Notes under the pieces: model-generated
The model's input: the letters and a program-made list of their open reading frames with translations, nothing else
Told to the model about the DNA's origin: nothing
The model's database searches: none
Source of the DNA: an uncultured Flavobacteriaceae bacterium
GTDB lineage: Bacteria; Bacteroidota; Bacteroidia; Flavobacteriales; Flavobacteriaceae
Direction: 5' to 3'
NCBI GenBank assembly: GCA_905181615.1
Contig: CAJIYH010000002.1
Span: 248,001 to 312,000, forward strand
DNA length: 64,000 nt
In this document: piece after piece, positions 4,056-25,755 of the stretch
How the letters are laid out: each line of letters starts with the position of its first letter
How positions within the stretch are numbered: position 1 is the first letter of the stretch
Made by a program: the position numbers and the translations under genes

Positions 4056-4107
4056 TAATGAAGTAGACATTTTTAACTAATAAGACATATTTACTTTTAA
4101 ATAAACG

Positions 4108-5106: not shown

Positions 5107-5185
5107 AAAACATATATAATCACTAAGGTTTTTGACAATATTTCCATAAATTAGTCGTTAATAAAAAGACGTATTAAAATTTATT

Positions 5186-8100: not shown

Positions 8101-11100
8101 CGCTCAGAATTGTTTTACAACTTCAAGTGCGGTTACTATAACAGTTAATCCAATACCGTCAGGATCACTTTCGTCAGGCTTAACGCTTGACACGATGTGT
8201 AAGGGAGACTATCCGATATTTACGGCAACTGGTGGAACTACTTATGAGTTTTATGTGGGAGGGGTTCAGCAATTTGGTGCTGGAATTTCTGGAAACATAT
8301 TTAATACAGTTTCTAATTCTTTAGATTTAACAGATAGCTCAATAGTATCTGTTAGGGTTATTAATGCTGGTGGGTGTAGTGAAACAATATCATCAACAAT
8401 CCGAGTAAATGGATTAACAGGAGCTAACAGTATTTCAGGTTCTCAAACAATTTGTACAGGAGGAGATCCAGTGCTACTTTCAAGTGCAGCAGTTCCAAAT
8501 TTAGACATAGCTGGAGCAACCTTAAGTTACCAGTGGCAGAGTAAAACTGGAGCAAACCCTTTTAGTGATATTGTAGGAGCTACTTTATTAAACTACGATC
8601 CAAGTGCTTTAACAACAACAACAATATATCGTAGGGTGGCTTACTCAACATTTAATGGTGTTCAGTGTCCTGGGACAGATGATTTAGGATCTTCAAATAC
8701 GGTAACTGTAACAGTAGATTCAGCAGCAACTCCTGTGCTTAATTTTACATCAGGACTTTCTAATGATACGCTATGTTCTAATAGTAGTGTAACATTTGAT
8801 TCAACTGGAACAACAGGAGCAGACACTTTTGAGTATTTTGTGAATGGAGTAAGTGCAAGATCTGCTCTTGCTTCTCCAGCAGGATTAACATACACTCCGC
8901 CTCTTGGAAGTTTAAATGACGGAGATCAAATTACTGTAAGAGCATACTTATCATCAATCCCGTCTTGTGCTGTTGAACAAACTATAACAATCCGAGTAAA
9001 TGGATTAACAGGGACAAATATAATTGGAAGTAATCAGAACGTATGTTCTGGGGATACTCCAGCTGCTTTTACAAGTATTTCAACACCTACAAGCGATAGA
9101 TTATCAGATGGTGCTGTTTACACTTATCAATGGCAAAGTAGGATAGGATCAAACCCTTATTCTGATATTATAGGAGCAAATAGTGAAACTTTTACTCCTA
9201 GTTCAGTTACTACAACAACTGACTATCAACGAAAGGTTATAAGCACTTATAATTCAGTAGTTTGTGACATGATTTCAGCTTCGGTTCGAGTCACTGTTGA
9301 TTCTAATCCAGATGTTTTTCTATCTGCAGCATCTACATCTATTTGTGCAGGAGATTCTGTTATTTTCACAGCTTCTGGAGCCGTAAGTTATGAGTTCTTC
9401 GTTAGTGGAATTAGTCAAGGAGCAACATCTACATCAAACACTAAGACTATTTCTGGGTTTACCGATGGTCAGCTTGTAACTGTAATAGGTGAAAACGCTC
9501 AGAATTGTTTTACAACTTCAAGTGCGGTTACTATAACAGTTAATCCAATACCGTCAGGATCACTTTCGTCAGGCTTAACGCTTGACACGATGTGTAAGGG
9601 AGACTATCCGATATTTACGGCAACTGGTGGAACTACTTATGAGTTTTATGTGGGAGGGGTTCAGCAATTTGGTGCTGGAATTTCTGGAAACATATTTAAT
9701 ACAGTTTCTAATTCTTTAGATTTAACAGATAGCTCAATAGTATCTGTTAGGGTTATTAATGCTGGTGGGTGTAGTGAAACAATATCATCAACAATCCGAG
9801 TAAATGGATTAACAGGAGCTAACAGTATTTCAGGTTCTCAAACAATTTGTACAGGAGGAGATCCAGTGCTACTTTCAAGTGCAGCAGTTCCAAATTTAGA
9901 CATAGCTGGAGCAACCTTAAGTTACCAGTGGCAGAGTAAAACTGGAGCAAACCCTTTTAGTGATATTGTAGGAGCTACTTTATTAAACTACGATCCAAGT
10001 GCTTTAACAACAACAACAATATATCGTAGGGTGGCTTACTCAACATTTAATGGTGTTCAGTGTCCTGGGACAGATGATTTAGGATCTTCAAATACGGTAA
10101 CTGTAACAGTAGATTCAGCAGCAACTCCTGTGCTTAATTTTACATCAGGACTTTCTAATGATACGCTATGTTCTAATAGTAGTGTAACATTTGATTCAAC
10201 TGGAACAACAGGAGCAGACACTTTTGAGTATTTTGTGAATGGAGTAAGTGCAAGATCTGCTCTTGCTTCTCCAGCAGGATTAACATACACTCCGCCTCTT
10301 GGAAGTTTAAATGACGGAGATCAAATTACTGTAAGAGCATACTTATCATCAATCCCGTCTTGTGCTGTTGAACAAACTATAACTCTTACTGTTCAGGGGA
10401 TTAATGAACCTAACACTATTTCAGGGTCTCAAGTAATTTGTTCAGGTGATATTCCAGTTCAAATATCAGGATCAACTTTAACTGCATCTCCATCAGGTGT
10501 TATAACATATCAATGGCAAAGTAGAATAGGAGCAGATAGTTTTGTTAATATCATTGGAGAAACTTTACAAAATTATACTCCATCTGCTTTATCAACAACA
10601 ACAGCCTTTAAACGTAATGCAATATCTACTGTTAATTTTACTTCTTGTGTATTTGAAAGTAATACTGTTACTGTAACAACCGCTGCAGGTCCTGTGCCAG
10701 TTGCAATACTTTCATCTGGCGAAGTTGCAGATACTGGTTGTGCAGGTGAAAATTTTATTTTTGATGCTAGCGCAAGTACCGGAGGATTGAGCTATGAATT
10801 CTTCGTAAATGGAATTTCTAACGGAATTGCATCTTCAGTAAATACTGCATCCTTATCATTAACAGATGGTCAAACAGTTAGTGTAAATGTTTATCCGGCC
10901 GCAAATGGCGTTGGATGTGCAAGCAGTCAATCAATTTCCGTTAGAGTAAATTCAATCTTGGGGTCCAATTTTATTGGAGGTGATCAAACTTTATGTGTTG
11001 GTGAGAATCCTTCGGTTTTAAGTTCAGTTAGCACTCCCACATCATCAACAGGCACCCTAACTTTTCAGTGGCAATCCAGGTCAGGTGTCAATCCTTTTGT

Positions 11101-14100
11101 TAATATAAATGGATCAACAGATATATCATATGATCCTAATGTTCTACCTGTAACTACAATATTTAGACGTTTAGCAATTAGCACTCTTAATGGAGTTAGT
11201 TGTTCAAATCCAAGTAATGAAGTAACTGTTACTGTTGACTCATCCGCTATTGTAACAGGTACACTAATTTCAGATCAACCTTCTGATACAGTTTGTTTCG
11301 GTGATCCAGGAGTAATTACTTTTACCGTAAATTCTGCAGCTGCTCCAATAACTGTCTTCTTTGTTAATAATGTTGAAGTTCAAAGAAGTAATTCTCAAAC
11401 TTACACTTCTACACAATCTAATTTTGCTGATGGAGACGTTGTTAAAACTAGAATTTTAAATGCCGCAGGATGTTATAGTGAGCAAAACTTAATTGTCAGT
11501 GTAAATGTGGCTACCGCTGGAAGTATTTCTGGAGCTCAATCTATTTGTTTTGGATCTGATCCTCTTATGTTAACATCTGTAACTTCTGGAACTATTGACG
11601 GAGTTGCTATAACCTCACCAGGCACTGGAAATTATCAATGGCAAGACTCTACTGATGGAGTAACATGGAATAATATTCTTACTGCGACTTCTGATAATTA
11701 CTCCCCAACTGCAGTTCTTGTAGACAAATATTATAGAAGACTAACGGTTAGTTCACTTAATGGTGTTTCGTGTACTTTCCCGACAAATAGCTTCTTAGTT
11801 AGTGTTGATATACTTCCCATTCCAGGTTTAACTGCAAATGGAGGGGCAATTAGTGCCCCTGCAACAATGACTTCTTGTTTAAATGCAGAGATTGTTTTTA
11901 TTGCCTCAGGGGGAGTTGAATACGAGTTTTTTGTAAATGGAGTTTCAATTCAGTCAAGACAAGCCTCACAAAATTTCTCATCATCTTCACTAGTTGATAG
12001 TGATGAAATTATAGTCCGAGTATATGATAGTTCGTCTCCTACCGCTTGTTTTGATGATTCGGGAATTATAGATTTAACTATAGATCCCCTACCTATGGCT
12101 TCGATTTCTTCTTCAGCACCTAATGATACTTTTTGTTCATCAGACAGTGTTGTCTTTACAGCAGGATCTGGAGGAGCACCTGCAACATATGAATTTCTTG
12201 TAAATGGTACATCTTTTCAAAATAGCTCTACAAATTTATTTGACACTTCAGACTACCTTATTACACTTACTGATCAAACTGCTGTTCAAGTTATTGTTTC
12301 AACTATTTCTGGATGCTCAAGTAATGTAACTATAGTCTTAACTGAAAATGGAATTTCAGATTTTGGTACATTAAGTTCAACAACAGCTTCAGTTTGTATA
12401 AATGATATTCCTGATCCAATTATTGGAACTACCTCAATTGCCTCGGGAACAATGACTTATCAGTGGCAATCTTCTCCTGATAATATTACGTATAGCAATA
12501 TCAATGGAGAAACTTCGACGACTTTGACTCCTACAACACCATTGCTAATTACTACATATTTTAAAAGACTTACAATAAGTGAATTAAATAGCGTTGTTTG
12601 TTCAAGTTCAACTGTTCCTTTCAAATTAACAGTTGACCCACCACCAATTCCTGGCTTAATATCGAATCCAGGAGCTATTTCAGCACCAGGAACATCAACT
12701 TTATGTGACATCACTGGTTCCGCAAGTTTTGAGGCAACAGGGGGTGCTTCTTATGAATTTTATATAGATGGAGCTGTATTTCAAGCAAGATCTGCTGTAA
12801 ATTCATTTACAGCTACTACATCAGGCACATTATTTAATAATAGTAAAGTCTATGTTAGGGTTTTCAAAGAAATAACAGGTGGATGTTTTACAGATTCGAA
12901 TTTAATTAATATTGTTACAGTTCCACAACCTGTTATAAGTTTAACTAGCGATAAGTTTTCTAATATCTTCTGCGATACAGATGAAGTAATCATAACCTCT
13001 ACCTCAAGTGTAGCTGGAAGTACTTTTGATTTCTACGTAAATGGGACAAGTTACCAGAATAGTATCTCAGGCACTTTTTCTCCGACATTAAATGCCCCTA
13101 ATGCTGTTAATGGTGGAGATGTTATTACAGTAATTGTAACCACACCTGGTGGATGTAGTTCAAGTAGTAGCTTAACAATGGTAGAAAACTTTATTACTCC
13201 TCCAGCAACTTTAACAACAGCAATTGCTAATTTATGTTCGGGTGATATACCGACTCCAATAATCGGAACAACAGGAAGTGCATCAGGAACTATTTCCTAC
13301 CAATGGGAAAACTCTACTGACAATATAACTTTCACTAATATTGCAGGAGCTCAGTCATCAACTTATACCCCAACAACAGGAATCACAACAACCACTTATT
13401 ATCGTCTTCAGACAATAAGTACATTAGGTGGAATAGTTTGTCAGTTACCAAGCCCATCAATAAGGGTTCAGGTATTACCTCCTCCTATAGCGGGAATAAC
13501 AGGTACATCATCCTCAGGTAGCATTACTGGTTTAGGTAATTTAACAGTTTGTCCAGGTGATCTAGTAAGCTTTTCAGCAACTGGAGGGGCAAGCTATGAG
13601 TTTACAACAGAATTAGGAGTGGTATTACAAGCACGCTCAACAAGTAATACATACAGTTCAACTACTTTAATAAATAATGATAAAATTAGAGTAACCGTAT
13701 TTAACCAGGTTGTAAATGGATGTTCAAGCTTCTCTGACATTATTACTATTGTAGATGGAGTTGCAGCAATTATTTCACTTACAACCGATAAGATATCTGA
13801 CACCTTTTGTTCAGGTGATGATATTGTAATAATGTCTTCTTCTTCAATTGCCTCATCAACCTTTACCTTTTATGTGCAAGGTATTCTTCAGTCTGGTCCA
13901 TCAACTAATTCATCGTATACTGCTGCAGCAGGTTCTATTCAAAATCTTGATGAAGTATCCGTTATAGTAATTACTCCTGGTGGATGTAGTACAACTTCAA
14001 CGATTACTCTCAATGAGAACTTAATTTCAACAACAGGAAACTTAACATCTGCAAGTCTATCGATTTGTTCAGGAGATACTTCTTCTAGTATAATTGGTCC

Positions 14101-17100
14101 AACCTCAGTAGCCAGCGGGGTAATTAGTTATCAGTGGTCAGGTTCAAGTGATAATATAACATATACAACAATTAACGGAGCAAATTTATCGTCATATGAT
14201 CCAGGTATTTTAACATCAACAACATATTTTAAGAGAAAAACAATTAGTGAACTTAATGGAGTTCAATGTGAATCAATAGATACTCCCTTTATAGAAATTT
14301 TGGTTGGTGATTCACCTGTATTAAATCGAACTACAGGTGGCCCATCTCTTCAAGAATTATGTTCAGGTGATACTATTACACCTATTAGCTATGAATTCGG
14401 CGGGATAACTTCATCTGTTCAAATTAGAAATTTAGGTGCGAATCTTGCTCCTGTAATGGTTGGACCTGGATTAGTTACTGCTATTGCTGGACCGCCAAAT
14501 GGATGGTATAATATTACATCTGCAGCTGCAACCTCGAGCTTTACTATTTCAGGAAATATTTTGAACACTTCTGTATTCGATGTAGTAACAATTTTACCTG
14601 CTGGATCTGCCTGCCCTCAAATCACAGAAACCTATTCGATTATTGTATCTCCGCCTGCAGTTCAGCCAGACTTTATTAGAATGGATGTTAACCAGCCAGG
14701 ATATGAGGTTCTTTCTTCGGCAATGAGTAATACTCCCGCTATTGCTGCTTTAGCACCAGTACGATGGTATAATAATACTGTTTGCCAAGATAGATTGCCG
14801 GCTCCAACTACAGCTAGTACAGAATTTTTTACCTGTTACATTGATAATGCATTCAATCAACAATCTAATCAGTATGAGTGGGAAGTTACACCTCAAGGTG
14901 CAGGTAATATGGTTAATAATAATTTCCAGCAAACAACAATTCGAGTAAATGAAGTAGCTGCTCTTTTAAATGGGCAAAGCTATACAGTAACTATTACAAC
15001 TGCTTCTGGAACAATAACAGCATATCAATCAATATCCAGTGCTGCAATGCAAACCGCAGACTTAATAGGTTTAGATTTAGCAAATAAAATAAATGTTGAC
15101 GCTGAAGTAACTGCAATTTATAACAATGTTTCAAACCAAATAATTATTGAAGCTGCTGTTGCTAATACAGCGTTTACTGTTTCTGCTGCTCCGCTTGGTC
15201 TTGGACAATCAATTCAGTTAGGAACCCCAGTAAATGATCTTAATGGAATTACTCGCAGTGGAACTATGCAATGGGATCAAGCCTTCAGCGGATTAGCAAC
15301 TATAAGTGTTCGATCTGTAGGTTGTGGAGGTGGTAATTCGCCTTGGACCTCTGTTCAGATTGATGTAATTTCTGAAAGTGTTCCTGCTAATCCAGCTTCA
15401 GAACTAAATACTCCGATTGCTTTAGATGTAAATACTTGTAGTGGTGGAACTACTGGACCCATTCCTGAATGTCAAATAGATGCATTTTCCCTTCCGACTC
15501 AATTTTTCGCTTCCAGTAACAATGCAGCTAATGTCAATGATTACGCTTCTCTTGAATGGAGGATTATTAACGAAGCACCAGGGATTGGATCTTCAGTTGC
15601 TTCACCTGGAACTATAGCTCAAGCTACAGGAATTATTTCATGGAATATTGGTTGGTTTGGTGTATTTGATTTACAAGTTCGACCAAGGAGTTGTGATAAT
15701 GTTTTGGGAAATTGGATATCGACAACAGTAATTATTGGTTCAACAAGTGCAGCTCCTTCAATTAGTGTTGATCCCTCATCTGCTTTACCTGAATGTCCTA
15801 TTCCGTTAGCTGGTTTCACGACGTTATTAGAGTCCGATCAGTCAGTAAAATGGTATGTAAACAGTTCTGTAGGCTTAAGCGATACAACTTCTTTTATTAA
15901 TACTAATACACTTCAATTAACGCCAGAAGCAAACAATGATTTATTATTAGACTTCCAACCAGGTTACTCAGGAAATGTAATTATTACTGCTGAGCCAGAT
16001 TCATGCCCAGGATCTTCCACTACTTATATTATTCAAGTCCCTGAACCACCGACTTTAACTTTGACTTCAGTAGTTAATTCAAATTTACAAATAGGTTCTT
16101 CTTCGGTTTGTGTTGATACTTCTATAAACACAATCACATACGATATTGATGGTGCAGCTAATACAGTAACTGTATCAGGACTTCCTCTTGGTGTAAATGC
16201 TGCATTACAAACTACACCTCAATCTACAATACTAAATTTCTCTAATACTGGAACTGCTTTCTCAGCAAATCAAGTATACTCTTTAAATATTAATAACAGC
16301 ATATTTAGTTTTACAACTACTGGTGGAACAAATTCATTTGATGATGTTGCAATAGGATTACGAGATGCTGTAAATGCGCTTACAACTGATTTTGTAGCTA
16401 CCTATGTTTCTCCTAGTTTATCTCTTGAAGTAAGTGCATCAGGTAGAAGAGGGAACTCATATATAATTGCTCGATCAACACCATTTGGCAATTCAGTTGC
16501 AATCAGCGCCCCTTTGGTTACAGTTTTACAAAAAACACTTACCATTTCTGGAACACCTTTAGCATCTGTAATTCCAGGATTATACAATTATGTAATAACC
16601 ACAGAGGCTCCAGCAGCAAATTGTGCAGTGGTCAGTTCTACAGGAATTATAGAAATTGAAGCTCCTGCAACTATTTCAATTACATCCGGAATAGCTAATA
16701 ATGTTGGGACTAATTCTTTATGTAATGGGTCCTCCTTTAACCCTCCAGCAGCTTTAATGACTGTTAAGATTCAAAATGCTTCACAATTAATTGTAGATCC
16801 ATCCACACCTCTTCCAAACGGTTTGTCTTTATCATTATCAGCTAGTGGATCTCTCAATGAGTATGAAGTAGTTGGACAAATTAATGAAACGGTAGTAGTG
16901 CCTACATTATTTACAGTAAACCTTATTACTGTTGGGGCTGTTTGCGATGAAGCTTCAATTCAAATAACAATAGAAGTAGAGCCGAGCCCAGTTATTATTC
17001 CCGCTGACGCTAGTCTTGTAAATCAAACAGAATGTTCAAGATCACCCATTGATCCTATACGATTTGAAGTTTTTAACCCTGCTTTTGGATTGGGTACAAC

Positions 17101-20100
17101 AGCGGCTAGTGTTTACCCTAACGGAGTTACTGGTCAGCTTTATCAACAAGCTCAACTTTCACAATTTCAAGTTAATTTCACTGTTAGTGTTGCAGATACT
17201 TCAGCTGTTAGTGACACATTTACTTTTAACATTAATAACACGCTATACACTTATACCGCTGCAGCTACGCACAATTATATTCAGTTAGCTTCTGAATTGA
17301 ATACTTTCTTAACTGATCAACTACCCAATGCAAATTATAGTGTTCTCTATACTGCCGGTACAAATGTGATTCAAATTCAAGCAGTTAATCCAGGTATTGC
17401 TTTTGATATTATTTCTTCAGAAACTTCTGCTAACCTTGGCATTGGTAATACAACAGTTGTAACCCCACCAGCTTACTATGAGATCTCTGGGACACCGTCT
17501 GTTACTCTTGTTGTACCAACAGATTACATATACGAGCTTATCACCTCTGGGCCTTCCTGTATTGGAAGCTCTTTAGTAAGTGGAACAATTACAATAAACC
17601 CAAACACATATGCAACTTATTTCTCAGGAGATGCTAATCCTATTATTTGTGACACTGAAACAATTGGAGATATTGTATATAATACAGTAGGTGCTATTTC
17701 TGCTGCAATAGTAACGCCAACGACTCCATCTTGGGTTAGTGTTAACTTTGATTCTGTTGCACAATCAGTAACTATTTCAACCCCTATTGCCCCCAGTTTG
17801 AATGTCACCCAAACTACAGTTTACACCTATCAAATTAATTTGATTGGAAGTATATATGGCTGTACCGATACACCAACTCCAATTCAAGGTACAATTACTG
17901 TATCACCCATCGATCAAATTAGTCATATTATAACTTCAGGTTCTCAAACACAAGATATTTGTGTGACAGGAAATCCTTTAGCAATCGTTCCAATTGAATA
18001 TCAATTATCTGGAGGAGCAACAGATGCAACTGTAACCGGACTACCTCCGGGAATTACAGGAAACTTAACAGTTTCTAATACAATTTTAATATCAGGAACT
18101 GCAACTCAAATTCCAAGTTCAACGTTTACTTATAATTATCAGGTGGTAACTACACCAGCTGCATGTGTTTCCGCAACTGCTAACGGTTCAATAACAGTAT
18201 TCTCACAACCTGAATTAACATTAAAATCAACACCAACATCTAATAGTCAAATAGGAGTTAATTCAATTTGCGATCAAACACCAATTGAAACCATTATTTA
18301 TGAATATAGCCCAGTGCCATCCACTATGGTTAATTTTACCTGGACGGGATCAAATAGTCTAAATGGATTAGGAGTTACTGCATCAGTTTCTGGAACTAAT
18401 CAGTTTGTAATCCAAGGAACTCCTTCAACTGGAGTTACCCAAACGACAATTTACACCTATCAAATAGAAACAGTTGGAAGTAATTGTTCGCCAGAAATTG
18501 TTTTAACGGGAAGCATTGCTATTAACCCAAATGATTATATAGTACATATTCCAACATCAGGTTCAGAGACACAATCAGTCTGCGTGAATAATCAAGACAA
18601 TCCGCTTACAGCTCTCGCCGAAAATTTTGTAAATATTCAATACCAATTAGAAGGAGGAGCTTCAAATGTTGATGTTTTAGGTCTCCCTCTTGGTTTAGGT
18701 TTCACTATCACTGCGTCAAATACTGTATTAATTTCAGGTATAGTAAATGCATCAGCGACGCCGACACTTTATAACTATATAATAACGACAAATGGGTCTT
18801 GTTCTAACGTAACTGCAAATGGATCTATCGATGTTTTAGCTTTACCTACTTTAACTCTTACAAGCTCTAATTCAACAATCAATCAAACTGGAACTAATGC
18901 AATTTGTGATGCTACTCCAATTGAAACAATTACTTATGAAATGGGTGGTGGTGCAACACGACTTGACTTCTCATGGGTTGGTTCTAATACACTTCAATTC
19001 TCAGGAATCACTTCAACTGTTTCTGGTACTGAGTATATTATCTCAGGTACCCCAACTACTGGTGTTACTCAAACTACTATCTATACTTATGAATTAACTA
19101 CTGCAGATAGTGGTTGTTCGCCCGAAATTATTCTCACAGGTAGAATTGAAGTTATACCAAATCAATCTGTTTCTTTAATATCTTCTGCAACTACCAATAG
19201 TCAAATAATTTGTATTAATGATCAAATTAGTTCAGGATCATTCACTTCTAGTTTTACTTCAATTGAATATCAATTAGGAGGAGGGGCATCAGGAGCAGTT
19301 GTAACTGGTCTTCCAACAGGAATTGGTTATACTATCACAGCATCAAATACAGTATTAATTAGCGGATCTGCAGCTCCTTCAGCTACATCTATTGCTTCTC
19401 CAACAATATTATACACTTATACACTCGTTACCTCTGGAGATTGTGTTACTTCTCAAGTCCAAGGAACAATAGAAGTTCATTCATTACCTGTAATGAGCTT
19501 AACAACTTCTTCTTCTACTTCAAACCAAGTAGGAATTGCAGGTTCTGTCTGTATGAATACTCCAATTGATGAAATCGTTTATAAATTTGAGGGTGGTGCA
19601 ACCGGTGTTCAATTTAGTTGGATTTCACCAGGACCTTTAAATGGAGTTACAGCAACTAATTCTGGAACAAATGAATTTAGAATATCTGGTAATCCATCTG
19701 TTAATATAACTACAAACACAGTTTATCAATATCAAATTGTAACTACTGGAAGTGAATGTTCACCAGAGATTACATTAACCGGAAGTATTGAGGTTAAACC
19801 AGATGATTTACTTTTACTAACTTCTGCAGTTGAAACTGATAATCAAGATATTTGTGTTGGTGGTCTTCCAGTCGCTAACGATCTCATAGATATTACTTAT
19901 GAATTACGTAATGGCGCTCAAAGTGCATCAGTAATTGGACTCCCTCCGGGAATTGGCTTCAGTATCAACGCTTCAGGAACACTTAGAATTAGCGGTACTG
20001 CTCAAGCTTCTGCCTCTCTATCTTCTTCAACAATATCTCCTTATATATATACAGTAACAACTATTGGATGTTCTCCATTTGTTATGAATGGAACTATCAA

Positions 20101-23100
20101 TATCATACCAAAACCTGAAATGATTTTAGCTGTTGGAGCAGAATTTCAGGAGCCAGTTTGTAATAATACACCTATAACTCCTGTAGGTTACGTTTTTAAT
20201 CCTGCAGCGGGATCTAATCCCTTAGTTACTTGGCCAGACGGAAGACCTAATGGGATTTCAGAAAGTCTTAGTGTTTTTGGAGGGGGAGTAACTCCTAACA
20301 TGATTAGTATTCAAGGAACTCCAAATATTAATGTATCATCAACAACAACCTACAGATACGTTATTACATATTCAGGCACGTGTGACATAGACGCTATTAA
20401 CCCTGATGTAATTGTTTCTGGTTCTTTTGGAGTAATTCCTACACCTTTTATTGATTCTCCTTATATCATTGCAAATGATGTAACTAACGTTTCTTGTTTT
20501 CAAGGAAATGATGGATCAATTATAATTCCTGATGATACATTGGCTCAGTTTGAAGATCGTATTAGAGGTGGTTTATTAAGTCAAAGGCAAATAGATGAAA
20601 TAACCCTAACGGGTACTACAGCTATTGGTGATATTATTAGTATTAGTTTTGGAGGAAAAACCTATTCATATACAGTTAAAGCCGCTGTTTATTTAAATCC
20701 TACACCTGAAAATTTCCTAGCAGTTAGTAATGAGCTTGCAGATGTTATTAATAATGCAGTTGCACCTAACCAAAGTTATGCGACTGCTGTTCCTTTCGGA
20801 TCGCCTACACAGGGAGGAATTAGACTTACTGCTGATGTTGGAGGAATAGCGCTTGACACTTCTGTTAATGTTGTTCAAACAGCTAACATTAGCAATACTA
20901 TTGTTACTACTCAAATCAATAGAGCCCTAAATTATTCATACAGTTGGACTGGACCGAATAACTTTACAAGTTCTAATTTAAGTATTTCAAACCTTTTAGC
21001 TGGAGATTATTTCTTAACGGTTGATCTTAACGGATGTTCTGAAACTTCAACTGCAATAACAGTTACTGAGCCATTAGAATTAATAATTGCCATAAGTGCT
21101 TGTGGTGGATTAACAGGTTCATTCGAAGCTACAATAACAGGTGGAACTCCGCCATATACTCTGATTCTAGAAGATGATAATGGCGTTCAAATTGGACCTG
21201 CTGTAGTTTCTAATGGTGGACAAGTATATACAGGTCTTGCGGTTGGTGATGATTATGTTTTAGAGGTAACGGACACAACTTGTAATCTAGCTGTTCGTGA
21301 GGCTATAGAAATCCCTACTCAACTGTTATTTAATCATTGGGATCTAAACAATGGAGTTACAGATAGTTATTGTTCAACTTCCGCAGGTAACGGAAGTATT
21401 TCATTAACTAGATCTGTTGGTGGTGTTTTCCAAAGCGCATTCAGTGGTGGTTCTAATGTGTTTTCATATGTTTGGACAAGTTCTTCTTCTTCAGCAACAA
21501 TTGGAGTTACTCCTAATCTTAGTAATTTGGCTCCAGATATTTATACTTTAACAATAACTGACTTGATTCTAGGTTGTTCTGACATCAGATCGTTTACTGT
21601 TGGTGGTTATCCTCAATTAGAGCTTAATCCTATTTTGATCGGTGGCTTACAGCTAAATAGTTCAGGTGTTTCATCAAGTACAGCAGATTATGTTTATTTC
21701 TTAACGTGCAGCGATGATAATGATGCAGCATTTACATTTAATGCAGCAGGAGGAAATAATAGTTATACAATTACTTCATCTGTTCCAGTTGGGACAACAG
21801 TTAATAATATAGGTGGGTCAATTATTATTCAAGATGGTCTTCCTGGTTTATATACAATTACACTTCAAGATGCTGGGCCTAACGGATTAGTTTGTGATGT
21901 TATCAAAACTATTCAGGTTATTAATCCTCCAGCTTTATACCTTGTTGAAGCGGTAGACTTGAGAGTAGATCCTGTTTGCTCTGGTGAGTATGGTTACCTT
22001 GAGTTTAATGTTATTGGTGGAGAGCCTAATAAAGGGCCGTATACAGTCACTTTAAATGGAGGTCAACTTGTTGGAAGTTCACTTTCTGCGGGGGACAGAA
22101 GAGTAATATTTAGCGACATTGACACTTCAATGGTTAGTGAAATTGAGCCTTTAGTTGAAATAGAAGATGCTTTTGGTTGTAGTACCACTGCTTCTTTAGC
22201 GAGTTCAATAACCTTTAACATTACTCAAAGCTTCGAATTCGAAGCTCAGGTAACCGATATAGACTGTTCAATTCCTTCACCTGGAACTGTTATCTTTAAC
22301 GAAATAGGACCTGATACGTTTACTTCATCAGAAAACATACAAATTAGAGTATATAGATCTTCAGTATTAATTAATATTTATAAATCTTGGGGAACAGATC
22401 CAAATACTTCTGTTGAATTCCAATTAGATCAACCAGGTTTATACTCTTATGATATTACAGACAGTAATTCTTGTGTATTGATTTCTGGAGGCGAGTTTGA
22501 AATTGTGGTTGTTGGTAATCCAAATCCACTTGACATTGCAAGTATTGACGTTACTCAGGTAGGTTGTGAAAATGATGTAAGTATAATTGCTCTTGATGTA
22601 GTGAATATCCAGCCACCATTAACGATCAATTGGTTCCAATACAAATCAACTACAATAAGCTCTTCTACAGGAACAGGAACATCAACCACATCAACTAATG
22701 TTACAGTAATTGCATGGGTTCCTATAAGTTCTTTAGATGGAAATGCTACGGTGTCTAATTTAGACGAAGGAATATATAGAGCTGAGGTTTCTGATGGACG
22801 TTCAGGGAATTGTGGTGGAACATTAGTAACAAATAGTATTATACTTCAAGAAAGCTCAATTGAGATAACGAACTTTAGAACTATAGAAAACAACCCAGCT
22901 TTATGTGATAACTATGGAACTAGCTTCACTTCTGATGTACTATTTAGTATCAGTGAAAATTTAAGTAGAAATCTTGGTTCAAATAGCTTTAATATTACAT
23001 TATTATCTGAATCAGGAACTGTAATATCTAATCCTGCTGCATGGGATCTTGATAGCAATGGAATTTTAGATCCAAAACCACAAGGATATGTTTATCGTTA

Positions 23101-24736
23101 TCCTAGCCTTCAAGCAGATCGATATACTCTTATTGTAGAAGAAAGTATTCCTGCATCAAGTACATTAACCGCTTGTTCAGAGATTTTCTTCTTTGAAATT
23201 CAAGATTACTTACCAATCTCTTATGTCGGACAAACTATATTTGAAACAGATATATGTACAGGTAGAGTTGATTTAATAGATGGTTTAGCTTCAGGAGGAG
23301 TTCCATTTATCATAAACGGACTTCCAACCTATCAGTTTGAATGGACTTATACACCTGATGATCCAACTGAACGACCAGCTAAGTTCTTTGGAGAAACAAT
23401 TCAAAATGCTCTTCCAGGATCCTATTGTGTTAAGATTACCGATAGTAATGGATGCTTCTATGATTCTTGCGATACAAGCTCGGGGGGCCAAACTTTAGAG
23501 ATTCTTGTAGAAGATGTAGTTTTACCGTTTACTATTAGTCCTAACCTGACTGATCGCGATGATCCTACCCTCCTTGTTAAATCATTATCTCCTGATTGTG
23601 AAAGTGGTGGTCAAGATGGGCGTATCGGAGTAGAGTTGTCAGGTGGTTTATTGCCTTATGAAATCACATGGTTTTTAGAAGATCCTACAGCTGTAGTTTC
23701 GGGAACATCAGCATATATTCCGGTTCCAGATAGCACAAACAGAACATCGCTAGAAGGATTAACACCTGGGAATTATAAGATGGTGATAACTTCAATTAAT
23801 CCTCGTGGCGCTGCGTGTGCTGCAGTTGGTGACTTCTTACAAAACGATTATCTCTATTACGAAGAAATTATTCAGGTATCACCAAACCGTGAACTATATA
23901 TAATAGACGGACCGTTTGTAGATGAAGATCTTTGTTCTGGACTTCAAGGGAGAATAACAGTCGATGTGTTTGATAACAATAATGGAAATTTAAGTTTCTA
24001 TTACAATGATATTTTAATTCCTTCTGATGACGTTGTTCGTGTTAACGATCGTTCATGGTCTGTTGCAATTGTAAACGCTATTGACTCTGCAGACTTTAAA
24101 ATTGTAAACGAAGAAGGATGTTGGATTTCATCAGAAATTAGTAGAGGAATTGGAGTGCCGAATTTTGAATATACATCTCCAAACTTTGAAATTTCATCTT
24201 CGATTCTAGCGCGTGAAGAAGTAACCTTCTTAAACACGTCTACAGATCCGTTTGTGACTTCTGAATGGATTTTTGGTGATAACTCAGCTCCTGTAATTGC
24301 ACAGTCATCTACAAGCAGTGTAACACCAATAAGACATGCTTATGGGGTTTCAGGGACATATTTTGCTACTTTACGTATTTATAATAGCATTGGGTGTTCC
24401 GATGAAGTTACTCAGCCTATTGTAGTTGGTAGAGGATATAATATTATGATACCAAATGTATTTACTCCAAATAATGATTTAGTTAATGATAAATTTAGAC
24501 CATTATTTAGTGGGTTTAGTAAAATGACTTTTTCAGTTTATGATTATCGCGGTAATGTGATTTATAACGAATTTGTTGAAGAAGCTGACTTGACAAATAT
24601 TACAGGAATATCAGTCAGTGGTTGGGATGGAGCTTTAGCTCCATACTCACCTTATTATATATTTACCGCATCAGGTGTGCTTCTTGACGGAGAAACTGTG
24701 GTAGAAAAAAGTGGAACCTTTATTTTGATTAATTAA
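5186..24736 (+). CDS. SprB-like giant surface adhesin with T9SS type-B sorting domain (6516 aa)
   Basis: A single uninterrupted frame for a secreted protein of about 6500 residues, close to the size I recall for Flavobacterium johnsoniae SprB. It starts at TTG (MNKELITFRTL), giving a signal peptide that ends at SLSAQ near residue 28; the first in-frame ATG (5219) would lack basic residues. Order: N-terminal domain to about residue 170; some 12 modules with a YQW motif alternating with YEFFVNG-type modules to about 3050 (Ig-like, probably the CHU_C-associated Ig family); a second array of about 13 modules with PIxxIxY and ISGTP motifs to about 5090; SprB repeats (for example SYSWTGPNNF) from about 5100; a PKD-like domain near 6350-6415; and a gliding-motility-associated C-terminal domain from about 6418 (IMIPNVFTPNNDLVNDKF). 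It has no catalytic motif. Type-B domains direct export by the type IX secretion system. The next gene, overlapping by 1 nt, encodes a SprF-like helper. A role in gliding or adhesion is inferred. Confidence 0.9.
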   Translation: MNKELITFRTLMIITGFMLFPFLSLSAQTSWDLRLNNRAQITTPAAGSPSQFCSSASSNLIFQVTNDGPDNLVLATVSMTATLTLTGNTFSPSGSNVATNAFTTNTFPGSQVQNEIRSGQFAVFTWPSPLQFASTGITTVTIEVAPFSGTDAIANNTQSYVVTVQANPTQPTLTSNYGNGTISICQGASVELTSSAVGDEYEFYRNGVLLGPRQASVSFITTNLNNNDVVNVIAFFTSNCSSVNSAPINVIAETLPSGSIASTANNNVACEGDSVLFTATDLNGNPTPYFEFFVNNISTGSASTVSTYTYTPVITDSVLVTVRTWSSSPSLCYDEDSITLRMNSVSGSNSITGSQTICSGEDPFIIANTSIFVADLAAEGAVLLYQWQSRTASTSFTNILGANAITHDPGILSETTAYRRLIYSSFNSVQCNTLAASATSNVVTITADLVSTAVLTSNAINLTVCSGDDLIVDGSTSLNTASYRFYLNGNPLGSGPQSTSSYTINAGTFSDSSSITLRAYQGTLGSGCFNDTSFVIRVNGLTGTNIIGSNQNVCSGETPAAFTSISTPTSDRLSDGAVYTYQWQSRIGSNPYSDIIGANSETFTPSSVTTTTDYQRKVISTYNSVVCDMISASVRVTVDSNPDVFLSAASTSICAGDSVIFTASGAVSYEFFVSGISQGATSTSNTKTISGFTDGQLVTVIGENAQNCFTTSSAVTITVNPIPSGSLSSGLTLDTMCKGDYPIFTATGGTTYEFYVGGVQQFGAGISGNIFNTVSNSLDLTDSSIVSVRVINAGGCSETISSTIRVNGLTGTNIIGSNQNVCSGDTPAAFTSISTPTSDRLSDGAVYTYQWQSRIGSNPYSDIIGGNSETFTPSSVTTTTDYQRKVISTYNSVVCDMISASVRVTVDSNPDVFLSAASTSICAGDSVIFTASGAVSYEFFVSGISQGATSTSNTKTISGFTDGQLVTVIGENAQNCFTTSSAVTITVNPIPSGSLSSGLTLDTMCKGDYPIFTATGGTTYEFYVGGVQQFGAGISGNIFNTVSNSLDLTDSSIVSVRVINAGGCSETISSTIRVNGLTGANSISGSQTICTGGDPVLLSSAAVPNLDIAGATLSYQWQSKTGANPFSDIVGATLLNYDPSALTTTTIYRRVAYSTFNGVQCPGTDDLGSSNTVTVTVDSAATPVLNFTSGLSNDTLCSNSSVTFDSTGTTGADTFEYFVNGVSARSALASPAGLTYTPPLGSLNDGDQITVRAYLSSIPSCAVEQTITIRVNGLTGTNIIGSNQNVCSGDTPAAFTSISTPTSDRLSDGAVYTYQWQSRIGSNPYSDIIGANSETFTPSSVTTTTDYQRKVISTYNSVVCDMISASVRVTVDSNPDVFLSAASTSICAGDSVIFTASGAVSYEFFVSGISQGATSTSNTKTISGFTDGQLVTVIGENAQNCFTTSSAVTITVNPIPSGSLSSGLTLDTMCKGDYPIFTATGGTTYEFYVGGVQQFGAGISGNIFNTVSNSLDLTDSSIVSVRVINAGGCSETISSTIRVNGLTGANSISGSQTICTGGDPVLLSSAAVPNLDIAGATLSYQWQSKTGANPFSDIVGATLLNYDPSALTTTTIYRRVAYSTFNGVQCPGTDDLGSSNTVTVTVDSAATPVLNFTSGLSNDTLCSNSSVTFDSTGTTGADTFEYFVNGVSARSALASPAGLTYTPPLGSLNDGDQITVRAYLSSIPSCAVEQTITLTVQGINEPNTISGSQVICSGDIPVQISGSTLTASPSGVITYQWQSRIGADSFVNIIGETLQNYTPSALSTTTAFKRNAISTVNFTSCVFESNTVTVTTAAGPVPVAILSSGEVADTGCAGENFIFDASASTGGLSYEFFVNGISNGIASSVNTASLSLTDGQTVSVNVYPAANGVGCASSQSISVRVNSILGSNFIGGDQTLCVGENPSVLSSVSTPTSSTGTLTFQWQSRSGVNPFVNINGSTDISYDPNVLPVTTIFRRLAISTLNGVSCSNPSNEVTVTVDSSAIVTGTLISDQPSDTVCFGDPGVITFTVNSAAAPITVFFVNNVEVQRSNSQTYTSTQSNFADGDVVKTRILNAAGCYSEQNLIVSVNVATAGSISGAQSICFGSDPLMLTSVTSGTIDGVAITSPGTGNYQWQDSTDGVTWNNILTATSDNYSPTAVLVDKYYRRLTVSSLNGVSCTFPTNSFLVSVDILPIPGLTANGGAISAPATMTSCLNAEIVFIASGGVEYEFFVNGVSIQSRQASQNFSSSSLVDSDEIIVRVYDSSSPTACFDDSGIIDLTIDPLPMASISSSAPNDTFCSSDSVVFTAGSGGAPATYEFLVNGTSFQNSSTNLFDTSDYLITLTDQTAVQVIVSTISGCSSNVTIVLTENGISDFGTLSSTTASVCINDIPDPIIGTTSIASGTMTYQWQSSPDNITYSNINGETSTTLTPTTPLLITTYFKRLTISELNSVVCSSSTVPFKLTVDPPPIPGLISNPGAISAPGTSTLCDITGSASFEATGGASYEFYIDGAVFQARSAVNSFTATTSGTLFNNSKVYVRVFKEITGGCFTDSNLINIVTVPQPVISLTSDKFSNIFCDTDEVIITSTSSVAGSTFDFYVNGTSYQNSISGTFSPTLNAPNAVNGGDVITVIVTTPGGCSSSSSLTMVENFITPPATLTTAIANLCSGDIPTPIIGTTGSASGTISYQWENSTDNITFTNIAGAQSSTYTPTTGITTTTYYRLQTISTLGGIVCQLPSPSIRVQVLPPPIAGITGTSSSGSITGLGNLTVCPGDLVSFSATGGASYEFTTELGVVLQARSTSNTYSSTTLINNDKIRVTVFNQVVNGCSSFSDIITIVDGVAAIISLTTDKISDTFCSGDDIVIMSSSSIASSTFTFYVQGILQSGPSTNSSYTAAAGSIQNLDEVSVIVITPGGCSTTSTITLNENLISTTGNLTSASLSICSGDTSSSIIGPTSVASGVISYQWSGSSDNITYTTINGANLSSYDPGILTSTTYFKRKTISELNGVQCESIDTPFIEILVGDSPVLNRTTGGPSLQELCSGDTITPISYEFGGITSSVQIRNLGANLAPVMVGPGLVTAIAGPPNGWYNITSAAATSSFTISGNILNTSVFDVVTILPAGSACPQITETYSIIVSPPAVQPDFIRMDVNQPGYEVLSSAMSNTPAIAALAPVRWYNNTVCQDRLPAPTTASTEFFTCYIDNAFNQQSNQYEWEVTPQGAGNMVNNNFQQTTIRVNEVAALLNGQSYTVTITTASGTITAYQSISSAAMQTADLIGLDLANKINVDAEVTAIYNNVSNQIIIEAAVANTAFTVSAAPLGLGQSIQLGTPVNDLNGITRSGTMQWDQAFSGLATISVRSVGCGGGNSPWTSVQIDVISESVPANPASELNTPIALDVNTCSGGTTGPIPECQIDAFSLPTQFFASSNNAANVNDYASLEWRIINEAPGIGSSVASPGTIAQATGIISWNIGWFGVFDLQVRPRSCDNVLGNWISTTVIIGSTSAAPSISVDPSSALPECPIPLAGFTTLLESDQSVKWYVNSSVGLSDTTSFINTNTLQLTPEANNDLLLDFQPGYSGNVIITAEPDSCPGSSTTYIIQVPEPPTLTLTSVVNSNLQIGSSSVCVDTSINTITYDIDGAANTVTVSGLPLGVNAALQTTPQSTILNFSNTGTAFSANQVYSLNINNSIFSFTTTGGTNSFDDVAIGLRDAVNALTTDFVATYVSPSLSLEVSASGRRGNSYIIARSTPFGNSVAISAPLVTVLQKTLTISGTPLASVIPGLYNYVITTEAPAANCAVVSSTGIIEIEAPATISITSGIANNVGTNSLCNGSSFNPPAALMTVKIQNASQLIVDPSTPLPNGLSLSLSASGSLNEYEVVGQINETVVVPTLFTVNLITVGAVCDEASIQITIEVEPSPVIIPADASLVNQTECSRSPIDPIRFEVFNPAFGLGTTAASVYPNGVTGQLYQQAQLSQFQVNFTVSVADTSAVSDTFTFNINNTLYTYTAAATHNYIQLASELNTFLTDQLPNANYSVLYTAGTNVIQIQAVNPGIAFDIISSETSANLGIGNTTVVTPPAYYEISGTPSVTLVVPTDYIYELITSGPSCIGSSLVSGTITINPNTYATYFSGDANPIICDTETIGDIVYNTVGAISAAIVTPTTPSWVSVNFDSVAQSVTISTPIAPSLNVTQTTVYTYQINLIGSIYGCTDTPTPIQGTITVSPIDQISHIITSGSQTQDICVTGNPLAIVPIEYQLSGGATDATVTGLPPGITGNLTVSNTILISGTATQIPSSTFTYNYQVVTTPAACVSATANGSITVFSQPELTLKSTPTSNSQIGVNSICDQTPIETIIYEYSPVPSTMVNFTWTGSNSLNGLGVTASVSGTNQFVIQGTPSTGVTQTTIYTYQIETVGSNCSPEIVLTGSIAINPNDYIVHIPTSGSETQSVCVNNQDNPLTALAENFVNIQYQLEGGASNVDVLGLPLGLGFTITASNTVLISGIVNASATPTLYNYIITTNGSCSNVTANGSIDVLALPTLTLTSSNSTINQTGTNAICDATPIETITYEMGGGATRLDFSWVGSNTLQFSGITSTVSGTEYIISGTPTTGVTQTTIYTYELTTADSGCSPEIILTGRIEVIPNQSVSLISSATTNSQIICINDQISSGSFTSSFTSIEYQLGGGASGAVVTGLPTGIGYTITASNTVLISGSAAPSATSIASPTILYTYTLVTSGDCVTSQVQGTIEVHSLPVMSLTTSSSTSNQVGIAGSVCMNTPIDEIVYKFEGGATGVQFSWISPGPLNGVTATNSGTNEFRISGNPSVNITTNTVYQYQIVTTGSECSPEITLTGSIEVKPDDLLLLTSAVETDNQDICVGGLPVANDLIDITYELRNGAQSASVIGLPPGIGFSINASGTLRISGTAQASASLSSSTISPYIYTVTTIGCSPFVMNGTINIIPKPEMILAVGAEFQEPVCNNTPITPVGYVFNPAAGSNPLVTWPDGRPNGISESLSVFGGGVTPNMISIQGTPNINVSSTTTYRYVITYSGTCDIDAINPDVIVSGSFGVIPTPFIDSPYIIANDVTNVSCFQGNDGSIIIPDDTLAQFEDRIRGGLLSQRQIDEITLTGTTAIGDIISISFGGKTYSYTVKAAVYLNPTPENFLAVSNELADVINNAVAPNQSYATAVPFGSPTQGGIRLTADVGGIALDTSVNVVQTANISNTIVTTQINRALNYSYSWTGPNNFTSSNLSISNLLAGDYFLTVDLNGCSETSTAITVTEPLELIIAISACGGLTGSFEATITGGTPPYTLILEDDNGVQIGPAVVSNGGQVYTGLAVGDDYVLEVTDTTCNLAVREAIEIPTQLLFNHWDLNNGVTDSYCSTSAGNGSISLTRSVGGVFQSAFSGGSNVFSYVWTSSSSSATIGVTPNLSNLAPDIYTLTITDLILGCSDIRSFTVGGYPQLELNPILIGGLQLNSSGVSSSTADYVYFLTCSDDNDAAFTFNAAGGNNSYTITSSVPVGTTVNNIGGSIIIQDGLPGLYTITLQDAGPNGLVCDVIKTIQVINPPALYLVEAVDLRVDPVCSGEYGYLEFNVIGGEPNKGPYTVTLNGGQLVGSSLSAGDRRVIFSDIDTSMVSEIEPLVEIEDAFGCSTTASLASSITFNITQSFEFEAQVTDIDCSIPSPGTVIFNEIGPDTFTSSENIQIRVYRSSVLINIYKSWGTDPNTSVEFQLDQPGLYSYDITDSNSCVLISGGEFEIVVVGNPNPLDIASIDVTQVGCENDVSIIALDVVNIQPPLTINWFQYKSTTISSSTGTGTSTTSTNVTVIAWVPISSLDGNATVSNLDEGIYRAEVSDGRSGNCGGTLVTNSIILQESSIEITNFRTIENNPALCDNYGTSFTSDVLFSISENLSRNLGSNSFNITLLSESGTVISNPAAWDLDSNGILDPKPQGYVYRYPSLQADRYTLIVEESIPASSTLTACSEIFFFEIQDYLPISYVGQTIFETDICTGRVDLIDGLASGGVPFIINGLPTYQFEWTYTPDDPTERPAKFFGETIQNALPGSYCVKITDSNGCFYDSCDTSSGGQTLEILVEDVVLPFTISPNLTDRDDPTLLVKSLSPDCESGGQDGRIGVELSGGLLPYEITWFLEDPTAVVSGTSAYIPVPDSTNRTSLEGLTPGNYKMVITSINPRGAACAAVGDFLQNDYLYYEEIIQVSPNRELYIIDGPFVDEDLCSGLQGRITVDVFDNNNGNLSFYYNDILIPSDDVVRVNDRSWSVAIVNAIDSADFKIVNEEGCWISSEISRGIGVPNFEYTSPNFEISSSILAREEVTFLNTSTDPFVTSEWIFGDNSAPVIAQSSTSSVTPIRHAYGVSGTYFATLRIYNSIGCSDEVTQPIVVGRGYNIMIPNVFTPNNDLVNDKFRPLFSGFSKMTFSVYDYRGNVIYNEFVEEADLTNITGISVSGWDGALAPYSPYYIFTASGVLLDGETVVEKSGTFILIN
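6791..7594 (+). repeat. Adhesin DNA repeat A, copy 1 (804 bp)
   Basis: First of three nearly identical 804-bp (268-codon) direct repeats that begin at ATCCGAGTAAATGG. It encodes one YQWQ module and two YEFF/YEFY modules. Compared with copies 2 and 3 it has GAA instead of GAT at 6854-6856 (E rather than D). It shares AACCC and GAGCAAAT with copy 3. Confidence 0.95.
7595..8398 (+). repeat. Adhesin DNA repeat A, copy 2 (804 bp)
   Basis: Directly follows copy 1 in tandem. By eye I find only three base differences from copy 1: GAT for GAA at 7658-7660, AATCC for AACCC, and GGAGGAAAT for GGAGCAAAT (Gly for Ala). It is followed by repeat B, forming a 1395-bp A-B unit. Confidence 0.95.
8399..8989 (+). 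repeat. Adhesin DNA repeat B, copy 1 (591 bp)
   Basis: A 197-codon block encoding one YQWQ module and one FEYFVNG module. It begins with the same ATCCGAGTAAATGG junction as repeat A and then diverges (GAGCTAACAG). I see no base difference from copy 2 at 9794. Confidence 0.93.
8990..9793 (+). repeat. Adhesin DNA repeat A, copy 3 (804 bp)
   Basis: Starts the second 1395-bp A-B unit. It combines the GAT allele of copy 2 with the AACCC and GAGCAAAT alleles of copy 1, so it is a mosaic of the other two copies. Confidence 0.95.
9794..10383 (+). repeat. Adhesin DNA repeat B, copy 2
   Basis: Second copy of the 591-bp block, identical by eye to copy 1 until about 10383, where the sequence leaves the repeat (CTTACTGTTCAGGG instead of the ATCCGAGTAAATGG junction). 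This marks the end of the recent duplication block of about 3.6 kb. Confidence 0.93.
14950..15230 (+). other. Inserted approx. 90-aa module, copy 1, within the adhesin
   Basis: Protein segment of about residues 3256-3348 (NGQSYTVTITTASGTIT, then LANKINVDAEVTAIYNN, then IIIEAAVANTAFTVSAA). It shares a pattern of strand, strand, helix, strand, strand with three other segments of this protein. It interrupts a domain whose halves are seen on both sides (YEWEVTPQGAG before, GTMQWDQAFSGLATISV after). Confidence 0.55.
16231..16530 (+). other. Inserted approx. 90-aa module, copy 2, within the adhesin
   Basis: About residues 3682-3781 (VYSLNINNSIFSFTT, then IGLRDAVNALTTDFVATY, then LEVSASGRRGNSYIIA). 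It lies between the VSGLPLGVNA half and the LTISGTPLAS half of an Ig-like module. Neighbouring modules have no insert at this point. Confidence 0.6.
17162..17470 (+). other. Inserted approx. 90-aa module, copy 3, within the adhesin
   Basis: About residues 3993-4096 (DTFTFNINNTLYTYTAAA, then LASELNTFLTDQLPNANYS, then IQIQAVNPGIAFDIISS). It again lies between the P-N-G-V half and the YYEISGTPS half of an Ig-like module. Confidence 0.6.
20594..20900 (+). other. Inserted approx. 90-aa module, copy 4, within a SprB repeat
   Basis: About residues 5137-5237 (GDIISISFGGKTYSYTVK, then VSNELADVINNAVAPNQSY, then IRLTADVGGIALDTS). It splits a SprB repeat: VSCFQGNDGSIIIPDD lies before it and NYSYSWTGPNNFTSSN after it. 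Confidence 0.6.
24440..24733 (+). other. Gliding-associated / CHU_C type-B T9SS sorting domain
   Basis: The last approximately 98 residues of the adhesin read IMIPNVFTPNNDLVNDKFRP, then MTFSVYDYRGNVIYNE, GWDGALAPYSPYYIF and SGTFILIN. This is the pattern of the gliding-motility-associated C-terminal domain (TIGR04131). Such domains target proteins to the type IX secretion system and in known cases need a SprF-like partner. Confidence 0.9.
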
Positions 24737-25755
24737 TGATCTTGAAAAAAGCTACATATTATTTATTACTAATAATCCTTTTTGTTGGAGGATCCCTTCA
24801 TGCGCAAGAAGAATATATTGTTAATCATTCTAAATTTATGCAAAAGTCGAATCCAAGTTATTTTGGTTTCAACAGCTTAAATAAAGTTGGAGTATTATAT
24901 AATTCTATGAAGCTAAATGAGTACGATAGACTTGATAATAAGTACTTTTTTGGAGCTTTGACTTTTGAAGATCAGGGCTTTAGCTTGGGTGTAGATATTA
25001 ATTCATTTAAAATTCAAACTACTGGACTAACTTCAAACCTAGCTAATCTATCTTATATTTATAAGTTACAGTTTGACAATAATACATTCTTTTTACCAGC
25101 TGTAACTGTTGGTTTTGGAAGCTCTAGTGTTAACCCTGCTAACCTTATTTTCGAAGATCAATTAGACACTTCTACAGGATTTATTAATAGTGAATCTATA
25201 GACCCTTTAGCTCCAATTATAAGTAATGTAAATTATTTTGATTTAGGTGCCTCTTTTATTCTTCATTCAGATAAATATATGGCTGGATTATCTTTTAAAC
25301 ATCTTAATAGACCAAATACTTCATACAATAAAGAAGTTCCTTTTGAAAAGCCAATTCAGGTTTCTCTTCAGGGGGCTTATGAATTTGACTTAAATCCATA
25401 CGAAAGAAGGTTTTTGCCCAGATACTCATATTTATATGCTTACGGTTCTTTCACTAAATATGGTGATGCTTTACAAATTTATCTTTCTCAAGATTTTCAA
25501 CTTGGTGAATTTTCAATTGGATTAAGTCAACAAGCAGCTTCGCTAAATTCTTTCTCATTAAATAATGTTGGTGTTTCTATTGGTTTAGCTGTTGAAAATT
25601 TTGATTTTGGAATTTTATATAACTTCCCATTTCAATCTCCAGGTATTGTTTACTCTCCAAGTATTTTCGAATTATTTATTACCTTTGACTTTAGTGTTTA
25701 TCGCAGAAATAAGCGTGGTCAATACAACCGCTTACAAGTCGATAACTACTACTAG
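24736..25755 (+). CDS. PorP/SprF-family T9SS outer-membrane partner protein
   Basis: A protein of 339 residues with a signal peptide (to SLHAQEEY, about residue 24) followed by an outer-membrane beta-barrel sequence rich in alternating aromatic strands. The start of the mature protein (YIVNHSKFMQKSNPSYFGFN) and motifs such as FGALTFEDQGFSLGVDI match the PorP/SprF family. In F. johnsoniae, SprF is needed to bring SprB to the cell surface. Its ATG overlaps the stop of the adhesin gene by one base (TAATG), so the two are translationally coupled and this protein is most likely the dedicated partner of the adhesin. The sprC and sprD genes found beside sprB in F. johnsoniae are absent. Confidence 0.88.
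   Translation: MILKKATYYLLLIILFVGGSLHAQEEYIVNHSKFMQKSNPSYFGFNSLNKVGVLYNSMKLNEYDRLDNKYFFGALTFEDQGFSLGVDINSFKIQTTGLTSNLANLSYIYKLQFDNNTFFLPAVTVGFGSSSVNPANLIFEDQLDTSTGFINSESIDPLAPIISNVNYFDLGASFILHSDKYMAGLSFKHLNRPNTSYNKEVPFEKPIQVSLQGAYEFDLNPYERRFLPRYSYLYAYGSFTKYGDALQIYLSQDFQLGEFSIGLSQQAASLNSFSLNNVGVSIGLAVENFDFGILYNFPFQSPGIVYSPSIFELFITFDFSVYRRNKRGQYNRLQVDNYY

Follow-up and report, generated by a model that had tools for sequence, protein, structure and literature searches.

A probable insertion domain recurring within Ig-like modules of a giant surface protein of an uncultured Flavobacteriaceae bacterium

The 64,000-nt stretch of DNA analysed here (the window) comes from an uncultured Flavobacteriaceae bacterium (assembly GCA_905181615.1, contig CAJIYH010000002.1, positions 248,001 to 312,000 of the forward strand) and carries a giant open reading frame (ORF) for a repetitive surface protein with immunoglobulin-like (Ig-like) and SprB-type modules, followed directly by a PorP/SprF family gene (Table 1). 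In this protein we characterized four segments, S1 to S4, which an earlier reading of the sequence (the original prediction) had taken for copies of one module of about 90 residues inserted in unrelated host domains. We consider it probable, if well short of certain, that the four segments are one insertion domain, composed of a strand, a hairpin, a helix and further strands, and that each copy occupies a loop in an Ig-like host, three host types being involved, within a giant stalk protein that is probably secreted by the type IX system.

All four segments lie where they had been placed and were recovered by an iterated hidden Markov model (HMM) at expectation values (E) of 1.7e-14 to 1.1e-16, although these values are partly circular because the copies themselves seeded the profile. 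A less circular test is cross-recognition, in which a profile of the orthologs of one site is run against the copies at other sites, the orthologs and other carrier loci having been gathered from the genomes of relatives. The S1 profile recognised the S2 copy of locus L050 at 7e-7, the S4 profile an S3 copy at 7e-4 and the S2 profile an S1 copy at 1e-3. Pairwise hhalign comparison of the site profiles gave E values from 2e-7 to 0.054 and probabilities from 90% (S1-S2) down to 0.6% (S1-S4), and for some pairs this comparison alone is no proof of kinship. The iterated profile converged at 89 matches (E <1e-3), spread over the window protein and 18 of 19 fetched loci (L062 had none). The best score was 6.2 bits on reversed proteins and 6.4 over five rounds of local shuffling; 20 bits was never reached there, vs. 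88 real matches at or above that level. The copies are homologous. Structure prediction succeeded for the S3 region, with a mean predicted local distance difference test score (pLDDT) of 75.8 and a predicted template modelling score of 0.53 (S2 sequences were included as alignment rows), and failed for S4, for which the model was of low confidence (pLDDT 44.2). The proposed pattern of a beta pair, a helix and a second beta pair needs extending: in the S3 model one strand precedes the hairpin and helix, after which come three strands and two short ones.

The hosts were examined with HMMs of their own. That of the PKD-like host at S2 and S3 was built solely from 137 full-length uninserted modules, 11 of which lie in the window protein and bear out the earlier statement that neighbouring modules lack the insert. 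At both sites it matched as two pieces flanking the insert and extending some residues into it. We then scanned every deletion of at least 60 aa; cut points are optimised in such a scan, so that some gain is expected, and deletions of the same length served as the control. Removal of 105 aa at S2 raised the score from 30.3 to 60.6 bits (same-length median 42.6, n=70) and removal of 107 aa at S3 raised it from 24.3 to 57.2 bits (median 42.4, n=73), and four uninserted modules taken for comparison scored 52-92 bits. At S1, the loss of 104 aa brought a W-type beta module HMM from 18.1 to 37.6 bits (median 20.0), and at S4 the loss of 117 aa brought a SprB-type HMM from 14.3 to 29.1 bits (median 16.2); these two HMMs draw on 14 and 11 sequences, most of which seem to be orthologs of a single module, and they test host continuity less strongly than the one used at S2 and S3. 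At all four sites the joined flanks score as one domain, as had been anticipated, and one module is nested inside different hosts, PKD-like at S2 and S3, W-type at S1 and SprB-type at S4.

Table 1. Features of the giant ORF and its downstream neighbour, in window coordinates.
Feature	Position	Strand	Remarks
Giant ORF, 6,516 aa	5186..24736	+	Repetitive Ig-like/SprB-type surface protein; TTG first codon
Host of S1, N-terminal part, W-type beta module	14777..14905	+	Start approximate; joined flanks 37.6 bits, whole region 18.1
Insert S1	14906..15217	+	aa 3241-3344, HMM core 3263-3334
Host of S1, C-terminal part	15218..15373	+	End approximate; 12.4 bits on aa 3356-3393 alone
Uninserted W-type module, aa 3426-3518	15461..15739	+	Its orthologs are the source of the S1 host HMM
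Host of S2, N-terminal half, PKD-like, G-L-P half	16100..16222	+	Host HMM partial 24.3 bits; joined 60.6
Insert S2	16223..16537	+	aa 3680-3784, HMM core 3692-3763
Host of S2, C-terminal half, ISGTP half	16538..16660	+	Host HMM partial 17.5 bits
Host of S3, N-terminal half	17021..17155	+	13.9 bits; joined 57.2
Insert S3	17156..17476	+	aa 3991-4097, HMM core 4005-4078; AlphaFold model of aa 3940-4142
Host of S3, C-terminal half, ISGTP half	17477..17602	+	22.5 bits
Nine consecutive uninserted PKD-like host modules, aa 4151-5075	17636..20410	+	
Host of S4, N-terminal part, SprB-type repeat	20468..20572	+	Start approximate; Pfam SprB 19.9 bits (cut-off 28); joined 29.1
Insert S4	20573..20923	+	aa 5130-5246, HMM core 5144-5228
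Host of S4, C-terminal part, YSYSW ... GDYFLTVD	20924..21064	+	SprB-type HMM 8.5 bits on C-terminal half alone
PorP/SprF family type IX secretion membrane protein gene	24736..25755	+	Directly 3' of giant ORF

The count of four holds for the window protein, but relatives carry the module at a fifth site, S0: each of the nine orthologs whose sequence extends that far has a copy there, some 330 aa upstream of S1. The corresponding position of the window protein (about 13733-14335, aa 2850-3050) is occupied by a different array of Ig-like repeats and has no S0-bearing module, as judged from eight of the nine orthologs, which were aligned. In five orthologs, an Ig-type HMM that scored 20-30 bits at S0 scored 36-49 once 125-133 aa had been cut out (same-length medians 21.5-32.0), the cut falling between the YYR..I and SCQ..T strands in four of them and elsewhere in L050.

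The place of interruption, as read from the sequence, differs among sites: S1 to S3 interrupt their hosts before an ISGTP-like strand, S4 before YSYSW, and S0 in the last loop. Because these places differ, it is likely that the module entered its hosts at least three separate times. The alternative is a single insertion, after which the unit of host plus insert was duplicated and the hosts diverged, the module itself never having moved. S2 and S3 do share both host type and position in the host, S1 interrupts a comparable place, and in other genera of the family the same PKD-like host is broken close to that profile position, the clear cases being L056 2651 and L058 1784, where a copy lies between host halves. 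(The halves are seen more weakly at L056 2425, L056 3175 and L061 2079, and the remaining copies have one half or none.) Moreover, all hosts may be remote Ig-like kin, and S1 to S3 may go back to one entry. However, the SprB-type host of S4 and the Ig-type host of S0 are interrupted elsewhere, and no host HMM recognised any other host type; for the whole set of copies we regard a single insertion as unlikely.

The insertions are old. In a tree of 90 copies, those of S0, S1, S2 and S3 were each separated from all others by a single branch (support 92, 89, 100 and 98, respectively); S4 copies were split in a quick tree, but a tree holding them together had the higher likelihood (approximately unbiased test, p-AU 0.923). 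The alignment has few columns, and 43 of 87 forks are open. Since copies cluster by site across species, the insertions predate the split between the source genus and the related genus G083. None of the 11 orthologs found has an empty S1 to S4 site wherever its contig covers the site, and the base composition of the inserts (34-36%) is ordinary against surroundings of 36.6%. At S2 and S3, identity in the three closest orthologs is similar in insert (0.60-0.73) and host (0.63-0.70), and in distant orthologs it is lower in the insert (0.31-0.44) than in the host (0.42-0.62). On the grouping by site, the composition and the want of empty sites among the orthologs found, a recent mobile origin was rejected. 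The earlier suggestion that the module "has spread" is thus retained for ancient insertion only, and not for recent movement.

Eight of 18 congeners searched, with assemblies 69-89% complete, gave no sign of the gene. In a sample of the order, the source genome alone matched among 246 at E 1e-4, and the module is therefore rare there; a family search with a four-copy profile gave 18 of 149 genomes at E 0.1, source included, and its weak rows with internal stop codons are probably chance. In a sample of the phylum, 15 of 395 genomes matched at E 1e-3: the source genome, six genomes of one other family with ORFs of 2,341-15,320 aa, seven in a gene assigned to FliD by Pfam (L087 by FliD_C only) and one with a 2,298-aa ORF bearing RTX repeats. 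By eye, the copies in the six distant genomes look serial, not nested. In that other Bacteroidota family (G576, G654; L076, L077, L090-L100), the module occurs in ORFs of 15,320, 11,708 and 10,321 aa, with nine matches in G576. Among closer relatives, the long frame is split at L064 (relative G005), where the S4 copy lies in an ORF apart from S0-S3, and similarly at L066, between S3 and S4.

The giant protein resembles SprB-type gliding adhesins in being long and repetitive, in its SprB-like repeat and in the PorP/SprF gene directly downstream (TIGR03519 91.6 bits, cut-off 90.55; PF11751 68.9 bits, cut-off 22.3). It differs in that Pfam SprB (18.5-19.9 bits, cut-off 28) and CHU_C (19.9 bits, cut-off 27) stay below their curated cut-offs. 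Ig_7 (35.1 bits) exceeds its cut-off of 27.3. For a type IX C-terminal signal there is the CHU_C match below its cut-off, and an NCBIfam scan of the last 1,516 aa gave no match at E 0.01. The best named record with an ortholog is Candidatus Arcticimaribacter forsetii (69% identity across a 916-aa query). The first codon is TTG at 5186, and an ATG lies 11 codons further, ahead of a stretch that looks by eye like a signal (MIITGFMLFPFLSLSAQ); translation may in fact begin at this ATG. The 5' part of the ORF also holds three direct repeats (window 6791-7090, 7595-7894 and 8990-9289), each at least 300 nt long and 99-100% identical, probably from recent duplication or gene conversion of Ig-like modules.

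In F. johnsoniae, SprF is bound by SprB (PMC9143113). The giant protein would form a stalk, a chain of Ig-like modules that is probably type IX-secreted and, by this analogy, held by its PorP/SprF partner. Because the host appears continuous across each insert, the insert most likely projects sideways from the stalk, much as additional domains stand on the outside of a phage tail sheath. Such lateral decorations would thicken the fibre or space it, or offer a variable surface, without breaking the Ig-like run; they may also resist proteases or bind a ligand. A more specific proposal, in line with the ligand binding suggested in the original prediction, is that the inserts are ligand-binding modules, for instance glycan-binding, held out on the stalk. 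Their place in what is probably a surface fibre, encoded next to PorP/SprF, would suit this role, as would the fact that at S2 and S3 the insert has diverged faster than the host module in distant orthologs. In contrast, the consensus over 56 copies has no invariant residue, and its most frequent letters (G, N-G, Y, I, A, F) suggest a structural role. Scans against Pfam, PHROGs and NCBIfam, covering the four segments or 56 of the 89 copies, returned no convincing family, binding families included, only scattered matches such as Phage_nozzle (0.0018) and Ca_tandemer (0.0048), in 3 of 56 copies each. Ligand binding seems to us unlikely, though neither supported nor refuted by these results.

We have not filed the module as a new fold; its kinship with domains of phage tail sheaths and flagellar caps is, by profile and fold comparison, likely but not proven. 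In the PDB, the module profile matched sheaths at E 0.0013 and 0.0016, and it recognised most of the eight sheath rows tested (phages 7-7-1, Milano, Mu, A-1(L) and XM1), two at 31-32 bits and four at 16-20; hhalign of module against sheath gave 93%. Foldseek with the S3 model gave probability 1.00 for several sheath chains and 0.84-0.89 (four chains) or 0.54 (one) for the D2-D3 region of FliD, all with E of 1e-3 or worse and no aligned ranges in the output. Seven Bacteroidota FliD proteins were also picked up by the profile. The literature reports the domain for one phage sheath and the flagellar cap, and describes that of the XM1 sheath as likewise inserted within another domain; among the matches listed, titles and abstract beginnings carry no report of it in adhesins. 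The present case differs from tail-sheath proteins in that the domain interrupts Ig-like hosts in a bacterial surface protein and occurs several times per chain, and from FliD in that E. coli FliD went unrecognised. Pfam scans jointly covering the giant ORF found no sheath family for a core domain, and no FliD_N or FliD_C. Flagellin_IN (PF07196) was rejected as the family of the module: it had no match on the four segments, was absent among the families listed for the 56 copies (25 of 30), and gave elsewhere in the genome a single 13.2-bit match (cut-off 22.7).

Several observations weigh against this reading. Two of the eight sheath rows scored poorly (L104 10.9 bits, L105 1.5), and with a profile of S1-S4 only, hhalign fell to 40% for sheath and 27% for FliD, sheath against FliD giving 15%. 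The 78% obtained for FliD is biased upward, its rows having been preselected by the module HMM (per-genome E 4e-5 to 9e-4), and E. coli FliD and FliC scored below 3 bits against the module profile. Foldseek E values are modest (8kee 1.1e-3), the match is placed inside the insert from its length and the profile, the sole PDB row below 1e-3 is a collagen-binding domain (template modelling score 0.18, root-mean-square deviation 20.9), and none of ten viral rows below 1e-3 is named as a sheath. In the PDB profile search the MpAFP Ig-like tandemer (MpAFP_RII, E 3e-4) ranked first, ahead of any sheath; a related RTX adhesin (0.0022) and designed Top7 proteins (0.0055-0.0097) were listed as well. The likeness to these tandemers lies mainly in the strand-hairpin sequence; past the hairpin the match is weak, and the S3 model contains a helix, whereas MpAFP_RII and RTX adhesin tandemers are all-beta. 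A tblastn search of 50,697 phage records with the module consensus gave no match at E 0.01, and sideways projection is argued by analogy.

One may also suppose that the adhesin copies are homologous to one another but resemble sheath and FliD domains by convergence on a simple strand-hairpin-helix-strand design, as the short Thr/Ser/Gly-rich sequence, the modest Foldseek values and the appearance of Top7 would allow. Profile, profile-profile and fold comparisons agree, however, on the same few protein classes, with matched controls near zero, which counts against convergence, and we think it quite unlikely. Compositional chance in a low-complexity protein, prompted by its Thr-, Ser- and Asn-richness to the eye, is ruled out by the reversed and shuffled controls and by host scores that double once exactly these stretches are removed.

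The module is real, old and nested. It is conceivable, although we advance it tentatively, that phage tail sheaths, flagellar caps and giant bacterial adhesins, three sorts of surface filament, have shared one travelling insertion domain, which settled in loops of the domains already there, and that in some small-genome marine Flavobacteriaceae the adhesins form a reservoir not yet described, where it entered at least three Ig-like host types. Domain insertion is much rarer than end-to-end shuffling, and here several host types in one chain are interrupted by one module, and the neighbours that lack it serve as internal controls. Should the proposed kinship to sheath and FliD domains be borne out, the domain would be a general "insertable" building block of surface filaments, and its entry into a folded host without breaking that host, as well as its movement between phage and bacterium, would become testable.
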